Origin: a virus
Reading direction: 5' to 3' (one strand)
Virus record (IMG/VR): IMGVR_UViG_3300025810_000038
Coordinates: 1-32,642 of that record
Length of the DNA stretch: 32,642 bases
Shown here: in pieces, positions 1,334-17,355 of the stretch
Layout of the letters: every line of letters begins with the position of its first letter
Position numbering within the stretch: position 1 is the first letter of the stretch
Notes under the pieces: generated by a model
What the model was told of the DNA's origin: nothing
What the model saw: the letters and a program-made list of their open reading frames with translations, nothing else
Database searches by the model: none
Position numbers and translations under genes: made by a program

Positions 1334-1402
1334 AGTGATTGATAAAAAAATAGGTTGTATCCCACGAAATTATGGGAGCCGTGAAGGTACAAAAGGAAAC
1401 GA

Positions 1403-1912
1403 TTAGGGTTTCAATTCGTAATAGGGTGAGTATGCGTGCTTTACATTCCACTCCCTTACTTCTGCTGGTGTGAAATCGGCGAATATGTAATCCTCGGGTG
1501 ATGTAAACAAGATGAAGAGTACCAGATCTGACTCCTCTTTGTCCATGGCTGGCTTGTTAGCCTTGAATGTTTTCTCGCAGGTCTTAACACTCAGTCCATA
1601 GTTCTTATCTGTCGCCTCAACTATGATGTCTGGGTCATCCGTCACGCTCTTGGTTTCTTTCAACAGCGTTGAGACTGTGTAGCGTATAACCTGTGGTGTG
1701 ATTTCAAAGTAGTGACGCATCAGTAACTCACCAAGTATGCCTATATATTCTGTATAGTATTCCCTCGATACCTCGCCAAGCAGTACAGACTTCTTTGTTC
1801 CTGTGCGCTGTTTATGTGTGCCCTCGTATCGTTGGCGATTAGCCTCAATGCGCATGAGGGTAAGGTCGTTTGCGTAATGCTTTAGGTATGGCGGTATGGT
1901 TAGGTTCTTCAT
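1403..1912 (-). CDS. Hypothetical protein with a PD-(D/E)XK nuclease-like core
   Basis: A 169-residue protein. Visible features are an early helix with a conserved-looking Glu (YIGILGELLMRHYF), then DDPDIIVEATDKNYGLSVKT, which has the spacing of a PD-x(n)-(D/E)xK-type catalytic core (PD, then S-V-K on the next strand), then a hydrophobic strand (DLVLFILF). That order resembles restriction-endonuclease-like folds, but the match is weak and read by eye. The start overlaps the stop of the glycosyltransferase gene by 4 bases, so the pair is co-translated. It could equally be another small enzyme. Confidence 0.6.
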   Translation of the reverse strand: MKNLTIPPYLKHYANDLTLMRIEANRQRYEGTHKQRTGTKKSVLLGEVSREYYTEYIGILGELLMRHYFEITPQVIRYTVSTLLKETKSVTDDPDIIVEATDKNYGLSVKTCEKTFKANKPAMDKEESDLVLFILFTSPEDYIFADFTPAEVREWNVKHAYSPYYELKP

Positions 1913-14752: not shown

Positions 14753-14785
14753 TGTGCGGTGTTATCCTCTTGCACTCGTGAGTTT
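14753..14785 (-). repeat. 33-bp leader repeat, copy 2
   Basis: Copy 2 of the sequence at 12695-12727, with one mismatch. It fills most of the gap between the amidoligase stop (14785) and the amidotransferase ATG (14742). The coding-strand sequence includes AAGAGGATAACACCGCACA. Two unrelated genes sharing this leader suggests shared translational control or copying of a useful start region. Confidence 0.7.
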
Positions 14786-16701
14786 TAGTTGTTAAGTAAT
14801 TCATCAATGTATTCCAATGATGACTGAGCATCGGTCACATAGTTGCGACCAAAGGTGTTGCGAAGTCTGTCGGTTGCCTCGCTGGTGTAGGATACAATCT
14901 GCGTACCCTTGACCTTGCGGTTCTTGAGTCGGCGCACTGCGCTCTTGATGAACACACCTGCACCATCGCTCGTGAAGTTGAACGATGAGTACATATCATC
15001 AGCGAACTGAGCGTAGATACTTACAATCTTGTGTATCTGCTCCTCGCTTGTGTACACTTTGCGTAAGTGCTGACCGAGTGCGCTCTTTGAACTGAGCATC
15101 ATCGTTATCACTTGCAGTGGTTTGACTCCGCAGTTTGATGCAACGATGCGCATCAAGTCTCTGCGCCATAGTAGGTTGGTCACACTCTTGACTGCGGGTG
15201 GTACACGAATCTCCAGGTACGAACCCTTCACGTGGATCGCGCTATACTTACCTGCACGTTTGTAGTCATCGGGTTTGCGTTTCATCTGTGAGTAGTGGTT
15301 GCCCAATCGGTGTCTCCAAATAGTTATGAACAAGGGAACGAACGCTTGTATTTGGTCAAACAATTCCTCGCCTGTAATTCCACGCTTACCGAAGTTAATG
15401 TGCCCACCGCAACTCGATGAGTATTCTGCATCAATGTGGTCACGCAGTATTCGTGACTCGGCAATATCGTTGTCCATTCTATTTTGGAATAGGTCGTAGA
15501 CAGGGCTGACTAACTCGAAGCCATCATGACCAAGCGAACCATCCTCCTCACGACACCATCCCGTGTCATCTACATCATACAAGTCATGCGCATCCATAGG
15601 GTATTCATCCTCTTTCTCCACCTCGAAGCCGATAGTCCAAACAGTGTTGTCGCTCAAGCGGTTTCTACGAAACCCAGAGTGGTAGTCATGACATCTTTCC
15701 GTGCCTGGTGGGTCGCACTGGTACTGGTCGGTACGCTCGTTCCAGAATACGTACTCGCCCTCATCATCCAAGTGGTAGTAGCGACTATCATCCTCACACC
15801 ATAGCGAGTCATCTCTCCAGCACCATTCATCTGCGTGCCTACCGCACTCCAGGTACACCAAGTCATCTTCACAATCGGGAAGCCATACATTATCTCTATC
15901 TACGGTTCGTCTCCAATGTTCTTCCGCCTCGTATTGGGTCACAACTACCTTGACCTTACCATCGTTTGTGTGACATTCCTCTATCACGACACACTCATCG
16001 AAGCGTACGTACTCGCCTTCGTAGTTGCTCTGCGCTGTGAATACGAGCGCATCTTGGCATGCAATCTCGTTGCCCTCAAAATCAATTACCTTTTCCATCT
16101 TATTCAATTTAACATATCGTTGTGCTGTTTCTATTCTCTTAAACATGGGTTGCAAGTTGAAGTATTGATTACGCTCATTTGCTATACTCCTCAGCAATGC
16201 GGCTGCATTGACTACCCAATCTCTATTGTGCCTTTCCGTAGGTTCACTCGCCTCCCTCATCCTATCAAACAAACTTTCTACTCGTTCACGCAGGATCGCG
16301 TACCTGCGCTGAAGTCTTTTGTTTAGTGTATCTCCACCAGTTACTGAATCATACAACGGTTCATACATACTGTTTTTCGGAACCCAAACAGCACGCACTA
16401 TCTCATCCGCCGTCATGGTGCTGTGCTTTGGGTACGCATCCAGCATTTCACGCACCTTGTCCTTGTGCGACATGATGGTTTCAAAATTATTGGACTGCAT
16501 CCACGTAGTTTGATTCAGTTCATCCACTGCATCGCCAAGACCTTTGAGTGTCTCGATTAGGTATGGCGTAGGTAACGCTGCGAGTTTCTGCGCAGGTAAG
16601 TCATCGGGTCGGTCATAGTCAAGCGATGACTCATTCCAAACAAGCCCTACATCAGATATGTATTCCGAGAGGGCGGATAGATTCTTCGTATCCATAGGCA
16701 T
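14785..16701 (-). CDS. GS-like COOH-NH2 ligase (Amidoligase_2 family)
   Basis: A 638-residue protein. The C-terminal half carries the amidoligase pattern in order: WTIGFEVEKE (355-364), DGSLGHDGFELVSP (387-400), SCGGHINFG (430-438), an Arg in IWRHRLGNHY (461-470) and SYLEIRVPPA (494-503). Such ATP-dependent enzymes join a carboxylate to an amine and are thought to make peptide tags or small amides. The N-terminal half is helical, then has a Trp/Cys/Asp-rich stretch (around 270-345) with repeats such as DEWCWRDDSLWCEDDSRYYH that may be a metal-binding or recognition module. Genes for a class II amidotransferase (next downstream) and a cyclotransferase (7405) lie in the same block. A GTGTGTA/TACACAC hairpin at 16709-16730 sits just before the ATG. 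Confidence 0.82.
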   Translation of the reverse strand: MPMDTKNLSALSEYISDVGLVWNESSLDYDRPDDLPAQKLAALPTPYLIETLKGLGDAVDELNQTTWMQSNNFETIMSHKDKVREMLDAYPKHSTMTADEIVRAVWVPKNSMYEPLYDSVTGGDTLNKRLQRRYAILRERVESLFDRMREASEPTERHNRDWVVNAAALLRSIANERNQYFNLQPMFKRIETAQRYVKLNKMEKVIDFEGNEIACQDALVFTAQSNYEGEYVRFDECVVIEECHTNDGKVKVVVTQYEAEEHWRRTVDRDNVWLPDCEDDLVYLECGRHADEWCWRDDSLWCEDDSRYYHLDDEGEYVFWNERTDQYQCDPPGTERCHDYHSGFRRNRLSDNTVWTIGFEVEKEDEYPMDAHDLYDVDDTGWCREEDGSLGHDGFELVSPVYDLFQNRMDNDIAESRILRDHIDAEYSSSCGGHINFGKRGITGEELFDQIQAFVPLFITIWRHRLGNHYSQMKRKPDDYKRAGKYSAIHVKGSYLEIRVPPAVKSVTNLLWRRDLMRIVASNCGVKPLQVITMMLSSKSALGQHLRKVYTSEEQIHKIVSIYAQFADDMYSSFNFTSDGAGVFIKSAVRRLKNRKVKGTQIVSYTSEATDRLRNTFGRNYVTDAQSSLEYIDELLNN

Positions 16702-16708
16702 ATGTTTT

Positions 16709-16730
16709 GTGTGTAACGTGCCCTACACAC
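16709..16730 (-). promoter_or_regulatory. Hairpin immediately upstream of the amidoligase start
   Basis: GTGTGTA at 16709-16715 and TACACAC at 16724-16730 form a 7-bp stem with an 8-base loop, ending 7 bases before the amidoligase ATG and 7 bases after the CCA of the tRNA-like element. No T-run follows, so it is not a standard terminator. It may control access of ribosomes to the start or separate the RNA from the mRNA. Confidence 0.55.
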
Positions 16731-16737
16731 TTGGGCT

Positions 16738-16831
16738 TGGGGGACTGTGTGGGACTCGAACCCACAGCGTACACCTCCGACCATGTTGTAACCAAAAACC
16801 AATCGAATGAGTGGTCGGCTGTACTCAGTCC
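16738..16831 (-). ncRNA. tRNA-like RNA element 1 with T-arm and encoded CCA
   Basis: Reading leftward from 16831: GGACTG at the 5' end pairs with CAGTCC near the 3' end (acceptor-like stem, 6 of 7 pairs). A T-arm of GTGGG-TTCGAGT-CCCAC lies at 16765-16749, then exactly 7 bases of acceptor strand, one discriminator C and an encoded CCA (16740-16738). Between acceptor and T-arm is a single long arm: GTACA with TGTAC (5 bp) and CCGACCA with TGGTCGG (7 bp) around a 28-base loop. No D-arm or anticodon arm can be fitted, so this is not an ordinary tRNA; the plan recalls the tRNA-like domain of tmRNA. Total 94 bases. It lies 37 bases upstream of the amidoligase gene. Confidence 0.6.
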
Positions 16832-16834
16832 GTT

Positions 16835-16855
16835 TATAGTGTGGTCTCCACTATA
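16835..16855 (-). other. Conserved 5' hairpin preceding tRNA-like element 1
   Basis: TATAGTG at 16835-16841 pairs with CACTATA at 16849-16855 around a 7-base loop (GAGACCA on the leftward strand). The same loop closed by GGTG/CACC occurs before element 2 at 17102-17116. Changed stem bases with pairing kept and the loop conserved support a real structure. Confidence 0.6.
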
Positions 16856-16872
16856 CCATCAAATCATCCCCA

Positions 16873-16880
16873 CAAACGTA
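16873..16880 (-). promoter_or_regulatory. Possible -7 promoter element before tRNA-like element 1
   Basis: TACGTTTG on the leftward strand fits TAnnTTTG. Transcription would begin near 16866 and run into the conserved hairpin, the tRNA-like element and the amidoligase gene. No TTG is visible at the -33 position; instead two TTTAACA heptamers 11 bases apart lie at 16902-16919. Confidence 0.45.
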
Positions 16881-16901
16881 GGGTAAATAACTGAGAATCA
16901 G

Positions 16902-16919
16902 TGTTAAAGCGTTGTTAAA
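16902..16919 (-). repeat. Paired TTTAACA heptamers upstream of the promoter-like box
   Basis: On the leftward strand TTTAACA occurs at 16919-16913 and 16908-16902, 11 bases apart, ending 21 bases before the TACGTTTG box. The same heptamer with the same 11-base spacing occurs at 18058-18099. This could be an operator or activator site. Confidence 0.4.
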
Positions 16920-16920
16920 A

Positions 16921-17007
16921 CTACTCCTTACGTGTAGGCTCTGGTAAGCCTGCAATAATGAGCATGGTTGAGTTTGCTAACAGCGAAAGGACGAACAATA
17001 AAAACAT
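16921..17007 (-). CDS. Possible 28-residue hydrophobic peptide
   Basis: A frame from ATG at 17005-17007 reading MFLLFVLSLLANSTMLIIAG and a short polar tail LPEPTRKE. It begins 25 bases downstream of tRNA-like element 2 and ends before the promoter-like box of element 1, so it sits between the two RNAs. It would be a single-span membrane peptide. Small size keeps confidence low. Confidence 0.35.
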   Translation of the reverse strand: MFLLFVLSLLANSTMLIIAGLPEPTRKE

Positions 17008-17031
17008 AGTTAATCGGGTTTAAAAATTAGG

Positions 17032-17095
17032 GGACTGCGAGTGTCTCGCTCACTCAGTACAAACAGGGCACAGGTAACCCCTTTGTAGGCAGTCC
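17032..17095 (-). ncRNA. tRNA-like RNA element 2 (shorter relative of element 1)
   Basis: Reading leftward from 17095: GGACTGC at the 5' end and GCAGTCC at the 3' end form a perfect 7-bp acceptor-like stem. A TACAAA/TTTGTA arm follows (17087-17082 with 17063-17058), then a two-base linker and a T-arm-like hairpin GAGTG-AGCGAGA-CACTC (17055-17039) with a 7-base loop, exactly 7 bases from the 3' end. The loop lacks the TTC of a true T-loop, and the bases after the stem read C-CTA rather than C-CCA. The order of arms matches element 1 although the arm sequences differ, and GGACTG, CAGTCC and an internal GGTTAC are shared. It is 64 bases long. Confidence 0.55.
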
Positions 17096-17101
17096 GTTGT
17101 A

Positions 17102-17116
17102 GGTGTGGTCTCCACC
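17102..17116 (-). other. Conserved 5' hairpin preceding tRNA-like element 2
   Basis: GGTG (17102-17105) and CACC (17113-17116) close the same 7-base loop (GAGACCA on the leftward strand) seen at 16835-16855. It ends 6 bases before element 2. Confidence 0.55.
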
Positions 17117-17133: not shown

Positions 17134-17355
17134 CTATTTTCGTTTGGCTCTACGAGCATCACGCTGGGCTTGTGCCCTATACACCTTGCGGTCTATGCGG
17201 TTGGCGTAGGTCATCTCAAGGGCATCGGCTTTTGCCTTGCCTCGTGCCTTACGCTTGCTGGCACTTGCGGTCTTGCCCTCCAGTGAGGGTGCGCTCACCA
17301 CTCGGACTACGTACTCGTAGCCCTTGTGGTTGCGGTGTGTAGCGTACATACCCAT
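17134..17355 (-). CDS. Small very basic protein
   Basis: A 73-residue protein with a short beta-like N-terminal part (MGMYATHRNHKGYEYVVRVV) and a long Lys/Arg/Ala-rich C-terminus (SKRKARGKAKADALEM, RAQAQRDARRAKRK). It probably binds nucleic acid. Its ATG and the stop of the upstream gene share one base at 17355. No family was recognised. Confidence 0.6.
   Translation of the reverse strand: MGMYATHRNHKGYEYVVRVVSAPSLEGKTASASKRKARGKAKADALEMTYANRIDRKVYRAQAQRDARRAKRK

Follow-up and report, generated by a model that had tools for sequence, protein, structure and literature searches.

Anticodon-less tRNA-like elements between phage genes as candidate RNase P processing signals

Two tRNA-like elements that have no anticodon arm, hereafter TLS-A and TLS-B, lie in tandem on the leftward (minus) strand of a 32,642-base virus record (IMGVR_UViG_3300025810_000038; the whole of this stretch is hereafter the window), each with a hairpin on its 5′ side, as a first-pass annotation had described. 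Comparison at the sequence level establishes their structure, homology, covariation and gene context, as well as their exchange with tRNA and with a ribozyme. These elements are probably cis-acting RNA processing signals, placed between the genes of a leftward phage transcript and cut by RNase P. The terminase shares 40-49% identity with its counterparts in Flavobacterium phages, Maribacter phage Panino and the uncultured podophage MW202828.1, and Cellulophaga phages are also among the matches, so that the host is probably a Bacteroidota bacterium.

Architecture and folding of the two elements

The order on the minus strand, to which all window coordinates below refer, is gene X, hairpin A, TLS-A, a 28-aa ORF, a promoter-like palindrome, hairpin B, TLS-B, a pseudoknot and a 638-aa ORF. 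Gene X (17134..17355) encodes 73 aa and has a basic C-terminus (...QRDARRAKRK), an arginine-rich tail that presumably resembles phage N-type RNA-binding peptides. Its stop codon lies 18 nt before the GTGG of hairpin A (17102..17116), in which the stem GGTG/CACC carries the 7-nt loop GAGACCA and is followed by ACGGAC. TLS-A (17028..17095) was delimited by folding, covariation and hand parsing, and 20 nt past it starts a putative gene of 28 aa, MFLLFVLSLLANSTMLIIAGLPEPTRKE (16921..17007), proposed from sequence only. The palindrome CCCTACGTTTGTGGGG (16868..16883), possibly an operator, surrounds a promoter-like TAnnTTTG box (16880-16873), which we take to be the Bacteroidota -7 box and which, by eye, is retained in homologues. 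The arms of the palindrome co-vary in homologues (CCCTAC/GTGGGG, CCCTAT/GTAGGG, TCCTAC/GTGAGG). Hairpin B (16835..16855), recognized by folding and motif comparison, reads TATAGTG-GAGACCA-CACTATA and is followed by AACGGAC; ahead of each TLS the loop consensus is GNGACCA, with ACGGAC after the hairpin. TLS-B (16738..16831) was delimited by folding, hand parsing and covariation. Both elements are real, but the feature is larger than the first-pass annotation had it, since it takes in the 7-bp stem of hairpin B and, directly after TLS-B, an H-type pseudoknot identified by comparison (16709..16736; stems GCCC/GGGC and GTGTGTA/TACACAC, loops of 2 and 4 nt). The last base of this pseudoknot is 7 nt upstream of the ATG of the 638-aa ORF, a putative amidoligase (14785..16701).

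The acceptor stem of TLS-A is formed by GGACTGC (17095-17089) and GCAGTCC (17038-17032), with one arm in between, and its T-arm, GAGTG-AGCGAGA-CACTC (17055-17039), is followed by C at position 73 and the tail CTA. Its T-loop, AGCGAGA, is non-canonical, and close homologues have TTCGTGA or CTCGTGA. In TLS-B the acceptor consists of GGACTGA (16831-16825) and ACAGTCC (16748-16742), the long arm contains the helices GTAC/GTAC and CCGACCA/TGGTCGG with a GGTT loop, and the T-arm GTGGG-TTCGAGT-CCCAC (16765-16749) is followed by C73 and the tail CCA. As a correction to the first-pass annotation, the acceptor has 7 pairs in TLS-A, and 6 pairs and an A-A mismatch in TLS-B. In both elements the acceptor is stacked on a 5-bp T-stem with a 7-nt loop, so that 12 positions are stacked in all, including the mismatch of TLS-B (relatives have 11-12), and an unpaired C(-1) faces C73, an arrangement typical of RNase P substrates. 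The 3′ motif is C-C-C-A in TLS-B, C-C-T-A in TLS-A and A-C-T-A in several relatives. An encoded CCA is present in TLS-B of the window, as had been claimed, and of L030 and L044, but it is not conserved: other parsed elements end in CTA or CAA, and CTA is found in most homologues.

TLS-A folds into a three-helix structure of -26.7 kcal/mol (z -2.94), equalled by 2 of 200 shuffles. TLS-B also folds into the proposed structure, with an unexceptional energy (z -0.93) that 30 of 200 shuffles equalled. Energy alone is therefore convincing for TLS-A and not for TLS-B, and it is the comparison with homologues that decides whether the elements stand above chance. Within the window, the hairpin followed by ACGGAC occurs exactly twice at up to 3 mismatches, versus 0.00 expected from shuffles, and a TLS descriptor composed of T-arm, acceptor and C-N-A tail, run at three settings, matched only the TLS-A and TLS-B places, versus 0 to 0.2 matches in shuffles. 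ARAGORN found 0 tRNA or tmRNA genes in the window, fitting no cloverleaf, and no Rfam family reached its cut-off there; the best sub-threshold match in the region was YrlA (RF02553), at the chance level of 17 bits against a cut-off of 69 (E 2). Together with the missing anticodon arm, these scans agree with the earlier view that neither element is a standard tRNA. The suggestion of a tmRNA-like mimic was not borne out, as the window has no reading frame for a tag and gave no tmRNA match with ARAGORN or Rfam, and the arm is too short for a tag frame plus pseudoknots.

Homologues and covariation

Homologues were collected by motif searches of three stringencies. A loose search returned 32 virus stretches, 13 of which contain real homologues; the other 19 look like chance by inspection and were dropped (L003, L005, L007, L009-L013, L015, L018, L019, L023-L028, L031, L034). 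A stricter search gave 35 loci, all judged real. A looser one gave 67 loci, of which 49, including those 35, were judged real by inspection of context, and 18 were dropped as chance (L064, L066, L071, L073-L075, L078, L079, L081-L087, L090, L092, L093). A DNA search of named phages with the element or with 25 kb of the window gave no match, and a short hairpin query against named phages matched weakly, and only within annotated genes of unrelated phages. Five matches from a pattern search of genome contigs look by inspection like chance matches in coding sequence and were rejected.

The homologues, from uncultured phages, keep the pairings through compensatory changes in acceptor stem, arm, T-stem and pseudoknot, which bears out the covariation first noticed by inspection of the two window elements. 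In the TLS-A family (11 distinct homologues, the window included) 97.4% of cells are paired and 6 pairs are changed on both sides, versus 0-1 in slid controls. In the TLS-B family (10 sequences, aligned without L063 and L088, whose T-arms misalign, and without L036, L038, L044 and L046) 100% of cells are paired and 4 pairs are changed on both sides, versus 0-1 in slid controls; four such changes were reached in 8 of 500 letter shuffles. For the minihelices described below, pairing amounts to 93.3%, and 8 of 10 pairs are changed on both sides versus 1-3 in controls. Both stems of the pseudoknot form in all 11 elements examined, the window included, with changed pairs among them. Twenty-one elements, two tRNA-Tyr among them, were parsed with boundaries set by hand. 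In every one the T-stem adjoins the acceptor directly, the third base of the loop is C and the tail reads C-N-A, the stretch from acceptor to T-arm ranging from 14 to 60 nt. The T-stem has 4 positions in 7 of the 21, with one mismatch in 2 of those 7. ARAGORN called a tRNA-Gln on the TLS-B homologue of L008 and made no such call on the near-identical L004 and L014.

The closing pair of the hairpin is paired in 34 of 41 distinct contexts, versus 19.3 expected if its two sides were independent. It covaries as an RNA hairpin would, and on this ground the shared hairpin was rejected as a T7-type promoter.

These compensatory changes also bear on the possibility that the elements are decaying tRNA genes, or a copy of a tRNA 3′ end that serves as integration site. 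The T-arm and tail of TLS-B do resemble a tRNA 3′ end, and in one lineage of relatives the TLS-A position is taken by an intact tRNA-Tyr. However, compensatory changes in acceptor, arm and T-stem indicate that the structure is maintained, and no integrase was found among the 20 window proteins compared with PHROGs, the record being a fragment, so that decay or integration appears highly improbable.

Exchangeable modules and flanking genes

The place that follows gene X and the hairpin is occupied by different modules. A tRNA-like module is present at 26 of the 49 hairpin loci, an Rfam-supported ribozyme at 2 and something else at 21; because many of the loci are near-identical, these are counts of loci and not of independent events. 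A TLS like TLS-A accounts for 20 loci and tRNA-Tyr for 3, namely L036 and L038, where ARAGORN called tRNA-Tyr(GTA), and L047, a repeat of an earlier sequence. A minihelix of acceptor plus T-arm takes the place of TLS-A in L044 and L046 and follows a longer insert in L051. A twister-sister ribozyme exceeds the Rfam cut-off of 34 in L045 (37.9 bits) and L054 (38.4 bits). The remaining 21 loci, folded by program in part only, comprise long stems (6), a plain hairpin (7), structures that are twister-sister-like by eye only (4) and unclassified structures (4). RNA cutting is argued for chiefly by the way in which tRNA, tRNA mimic, minihelix and self-cleaving ribozyme replace one another at one syntenic place. 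The main objection to a universal rule comes from the seven plain-hairpin loci, which imply that cutting is not a function common to all.

Twister-sister assignments in L037, L039, L052 and L076 were rejected; the Rfam model stayed below cut-off in the first three. A hammerhead in L053 or L050 was likewise dropped, Rfam being unsupportive and the core of L050 broken by eye; the core seen by eye after the hairpin of L053 (3416-3560) is hammerhead-like and has no Rfam support. In L045 and L054 the hairpin is flanked on either side by copies of TGTTCCACGTGAAACA (two copies), which we take to be parS-site-like. Gene X of L126 has a hairpin on either side: besides the copy after it, another, with ACGGAA, precedes it (~1387-1415, plus strand), and GGGATAACTATG, which follows this preceding copy, resembles the arm loop of TLS-A.

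Of the 35 stricter-motif loci, all but L040 (34 loci) have an ORF whose tail looks similarly basic by eye and whose end lies 10-48 nt ahead of a hairpin; gene X itself has no PHROG or Pfam match. The hairpin could accordingly be thought of as a binding site for a protein such as the basic product of gene X, in the style of antitermination or autoregulation, with the TLS as a secondary spacer or insulator. The recurrence of gene X-like ORFs would fit this, as would the presence of the hairpin at all 49 loci (it was used to find them) ahead of modules that vary. Such a reading would nevertheless leave unexplained the tRNA geometry kept by covariation, and minihelices recur in phages where no such hairpin was seen; we regard it as improbable.

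The 638-aa ORF downstream of TLS-B is a putative amidoligase, as suggested by profile and model matches: Pfam Amidoligase_2 matched 4 of 9 aligned homologues (best E 3.8e-5) and did not match the window's own protein, and Dop, YbdK and glutamine synthetase were weakly matched in fold by a low-confidence model. As a single query the protein reached only the near-identical phage L035, and an alignment search retrieved 79 loci with amidoligase-like proteins. The hairpin occurs at 46 places in these loci, versus 0.3 in shuffles, all of them in contigs already found by the pattern searches and none in other loci. In L044 and in a new contig, L114, TLS and pseudoknot are kept beside amidoligase-like genes without the hairpin.

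The rival ranked strongest is a role for TLS-B in translation. TLS-B and the pseudoknot would form, without any cutting, a translation-control leader of the amidoligase-like gene, either a tRNA-mimicking ribosome recruiter or an operator, and TLS-A would act likewise for the next gene. The pseudoknot covaries strongly and leaves, by eye, a gap of 6-8 nt to the probable ATG of the window, L004 and L030, the promoter-like box lies just upstream of TLS-B, and the amidoligase-like genes of L044 and L114 retain TLS and pseudoknot when the hairpin is missing. By contrast, TLS-A of the window's closest relatives has no pseudoknot and precedes varied genes, and a swap with a self-cleaving ribozyme and with tRNA is hard to square with ribosome recruitment. 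A leader of this kind is rather unlikely.

The adjacency of several TLS to an amidoligase-like gene could also suggest free, aminoacylated or CCA-tailed tRNA-like RNAs, for example amino-acid carriers for the amidoligase-like enzyme, and acceptor plus T-arm is a minimal substrate of tail-adding enzymes. However, base 73 varies (C, A or T), the tail is variable and mostly not CCA, the elements have no anticodon arm, and TLS-A and most of the minihelices seen precede other genes. Aminoacylation, one of the functions raised in the first-pass annotation, is hence unlikely, and the whole free-RNA reading is quite improbable.

A TLS scan of 483 kb of amidoligase-like loci yielded 17 matches versus 0.8 in shuffles; 8 belong to the TLS families of the window, two look by eye like ordinary tRNA genes, and minihelices are among the rest. 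These natural minihelices of ~45 nt are found between genes of other phages and follow the plan acceptor, 10-11-nt linker with GGT, T-arm, acceptor, A-C-T-A. A search by pattern returned 14 stretches; T-stem pairing is complete in 7, one of which has two copies, and the other 7, with an unpaired T-stem, were dropped (L174, L175, L179-L182, L184). When a covariance model was made from six minihelices found in G001-G004, 12 of 50 records had matches at E <= 0.01, with 3 copies in G001, 4 in G002, 4 in G003 and 2 in G008. The last of these is the record to which the window relative L030 belongs, and it also contains TLS-A and TLS-B. When ORFs of at least 35 aa with an ATG start were counted around the 11 minihelices of G001-G003, 8 had the next ORF 19-48 nt downstream and none spanning them, 2 lay inside a short ORF (the next listed ORF being 201 nt on for one of these), and for the last one the next listed ORF was 266 nt on. 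For some minihelices the proposed shape is not the one of lowest energy (L044 has z -0.09, and L176 adopts a different fold). Next to minihelices of other phages lie 16-bp palindromes that could act as DNA operators, for which reason they were not counted as RNA hairpins.

ARAGORN and Rfam made no call in the minihelices of the five stretches examined. Since these and the window elements escaped both programs, others may hide in known phages. An unannotated TLS candidate lies between CDS0022 and CDS0023 of the cultured Maribacter phage Panino (L206, PP540027.1; 4941-5035). Of the 12 matches in the Panino scan, 7 are annotated tRNAs; shuffling the part that contains the candidate gave an expectation of 0.5, and 10 of 200 shuffles equalled the candidate's fold. 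A second unannotated candidate, in MW202828.1 (44484-44536), has a proposed shape that is not its minimum-energy fold. The descriptor found no match in 49 kb of Flavobacterium phage elemoF (L208) or in bases 1-40700 of MW202828.1 (L205). In bases 40792-53036 of the latter (L204) the palindrome GTGTCGTTAACGACAC occurs 13 times in 12 kb, with none in bases 1-40700, possibly an operator array. A larger TLS candidate, GGACGAG...CTCGTCC-A-CTA, was seen on the reverse strand of L195 (~1500-1600), near the far end of the L030 record.

Proposed punctuation by RNase P and known systems

Among the functions listed in the first-pass annotation, an RNase P site fits best, by its geometry and by the exchange with tRNA and ribozyme; we infer cleavage, together with transcription, the enzyme and an effect on expression. 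Each element would offer RNase P an acceptor stem stacked on a T-arm, 11-12 positions long and with an elbow-like loop. The host enzyme would cut at the AAC/GGAC junctions, 17096/17095 and 16832/16831. This would place the 3′ end of the upstream message a few nucleotides past the conserved hairpin, which could shield that end, and the downstream message would begin with a base-paired, tRNA-like 5′ end. After the cut at TLS-B, the pseudoknot would be retained next to the amidoligase-like start codon in a structured mRNA 5′ end. RNase Z might make a further cut past base 73 and so free a small RNA. Two features speak against simple tRNA maturation: CTA or CAA tails would weaken the RCCA contact that aids RNase P, and a pseudoknot directly after the tail of TLS-B would hinder RNase Z.

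More generally, and more tentatively, Bacteroidota-type phages may possess an undescribed form of message punctuation, in which elements ranging from anticodon-less tRNA mimics to ~45-nt minihelices are cut by host RNase P between genes, are interchangeable in evolution with tRNAs and self-cleaving ribozymes, and leave hairpin-capped 3′ ends upstream and tRNA- and pseudoknot-capped 5′ ends downstream. Should cutting be demonstrated, minimal RNase P substrates of the laboratory type would exist in nature as signals at phage gene boundaries, and they would provide a direct test of the reason why RNase P acts on non-tRNA messages and of the shaping of polycistronic RNA by a phage without a nuclease of its own. 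That a single genomic position can hold a tRNA, a tRNA mimic or a self-cleaving ribozyme amounts to an unusual natural experiment in RNA function. No earlier description of such elements was found in the open-access literature, as judged by titles and abstract openings; in our analysis, what would be new is RNase P-type tRNA mimicry as gene punctuation, with an unusual ribozyme exchange.

In mitochondria, transcripts are punctuated by tRNA-shaped signals that lie between genes and show where cuts are made; here, by contrast, the proposed signals belong to a bacterial virus, and most have no anticodon arm and cannot decode. YrlA, a bacterial Y RNA with a tRNA-like module, shares a T-arm-like hairpin next to other structure, its match being at chance level. 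Phages P1 and P7 are the source of the antisense C4 RNA. According to one source, this RNA, phage M3 RNA and T4 gene 32 mRNA are RNase P substrates, and the enzyme also cleaves model substrates of acceptor plus T-stem-loop (PMC11143913). These RNAs share with the present elements the acceptor/T-arm geometry or a phage origin, but the model substrates are laboratory constructs and the named phage substrates single RNAs, whereas the elements described here form a covarying intergenic family in many phages that swaps with tRNA and ribozyme. The nearest published idea found is that of theta ribozymes, which adjoin tRNAs of gut phages with hosts said to be Bacteroidota and Bacillota, and of which an HDV-like example was proposed to trim a true tRNA (PMC10879173). 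Both cases involve phage tRNA regions and self-cleaving ribozymes, but here tRNA-like RNA and twister-sister are alternatives at one place.
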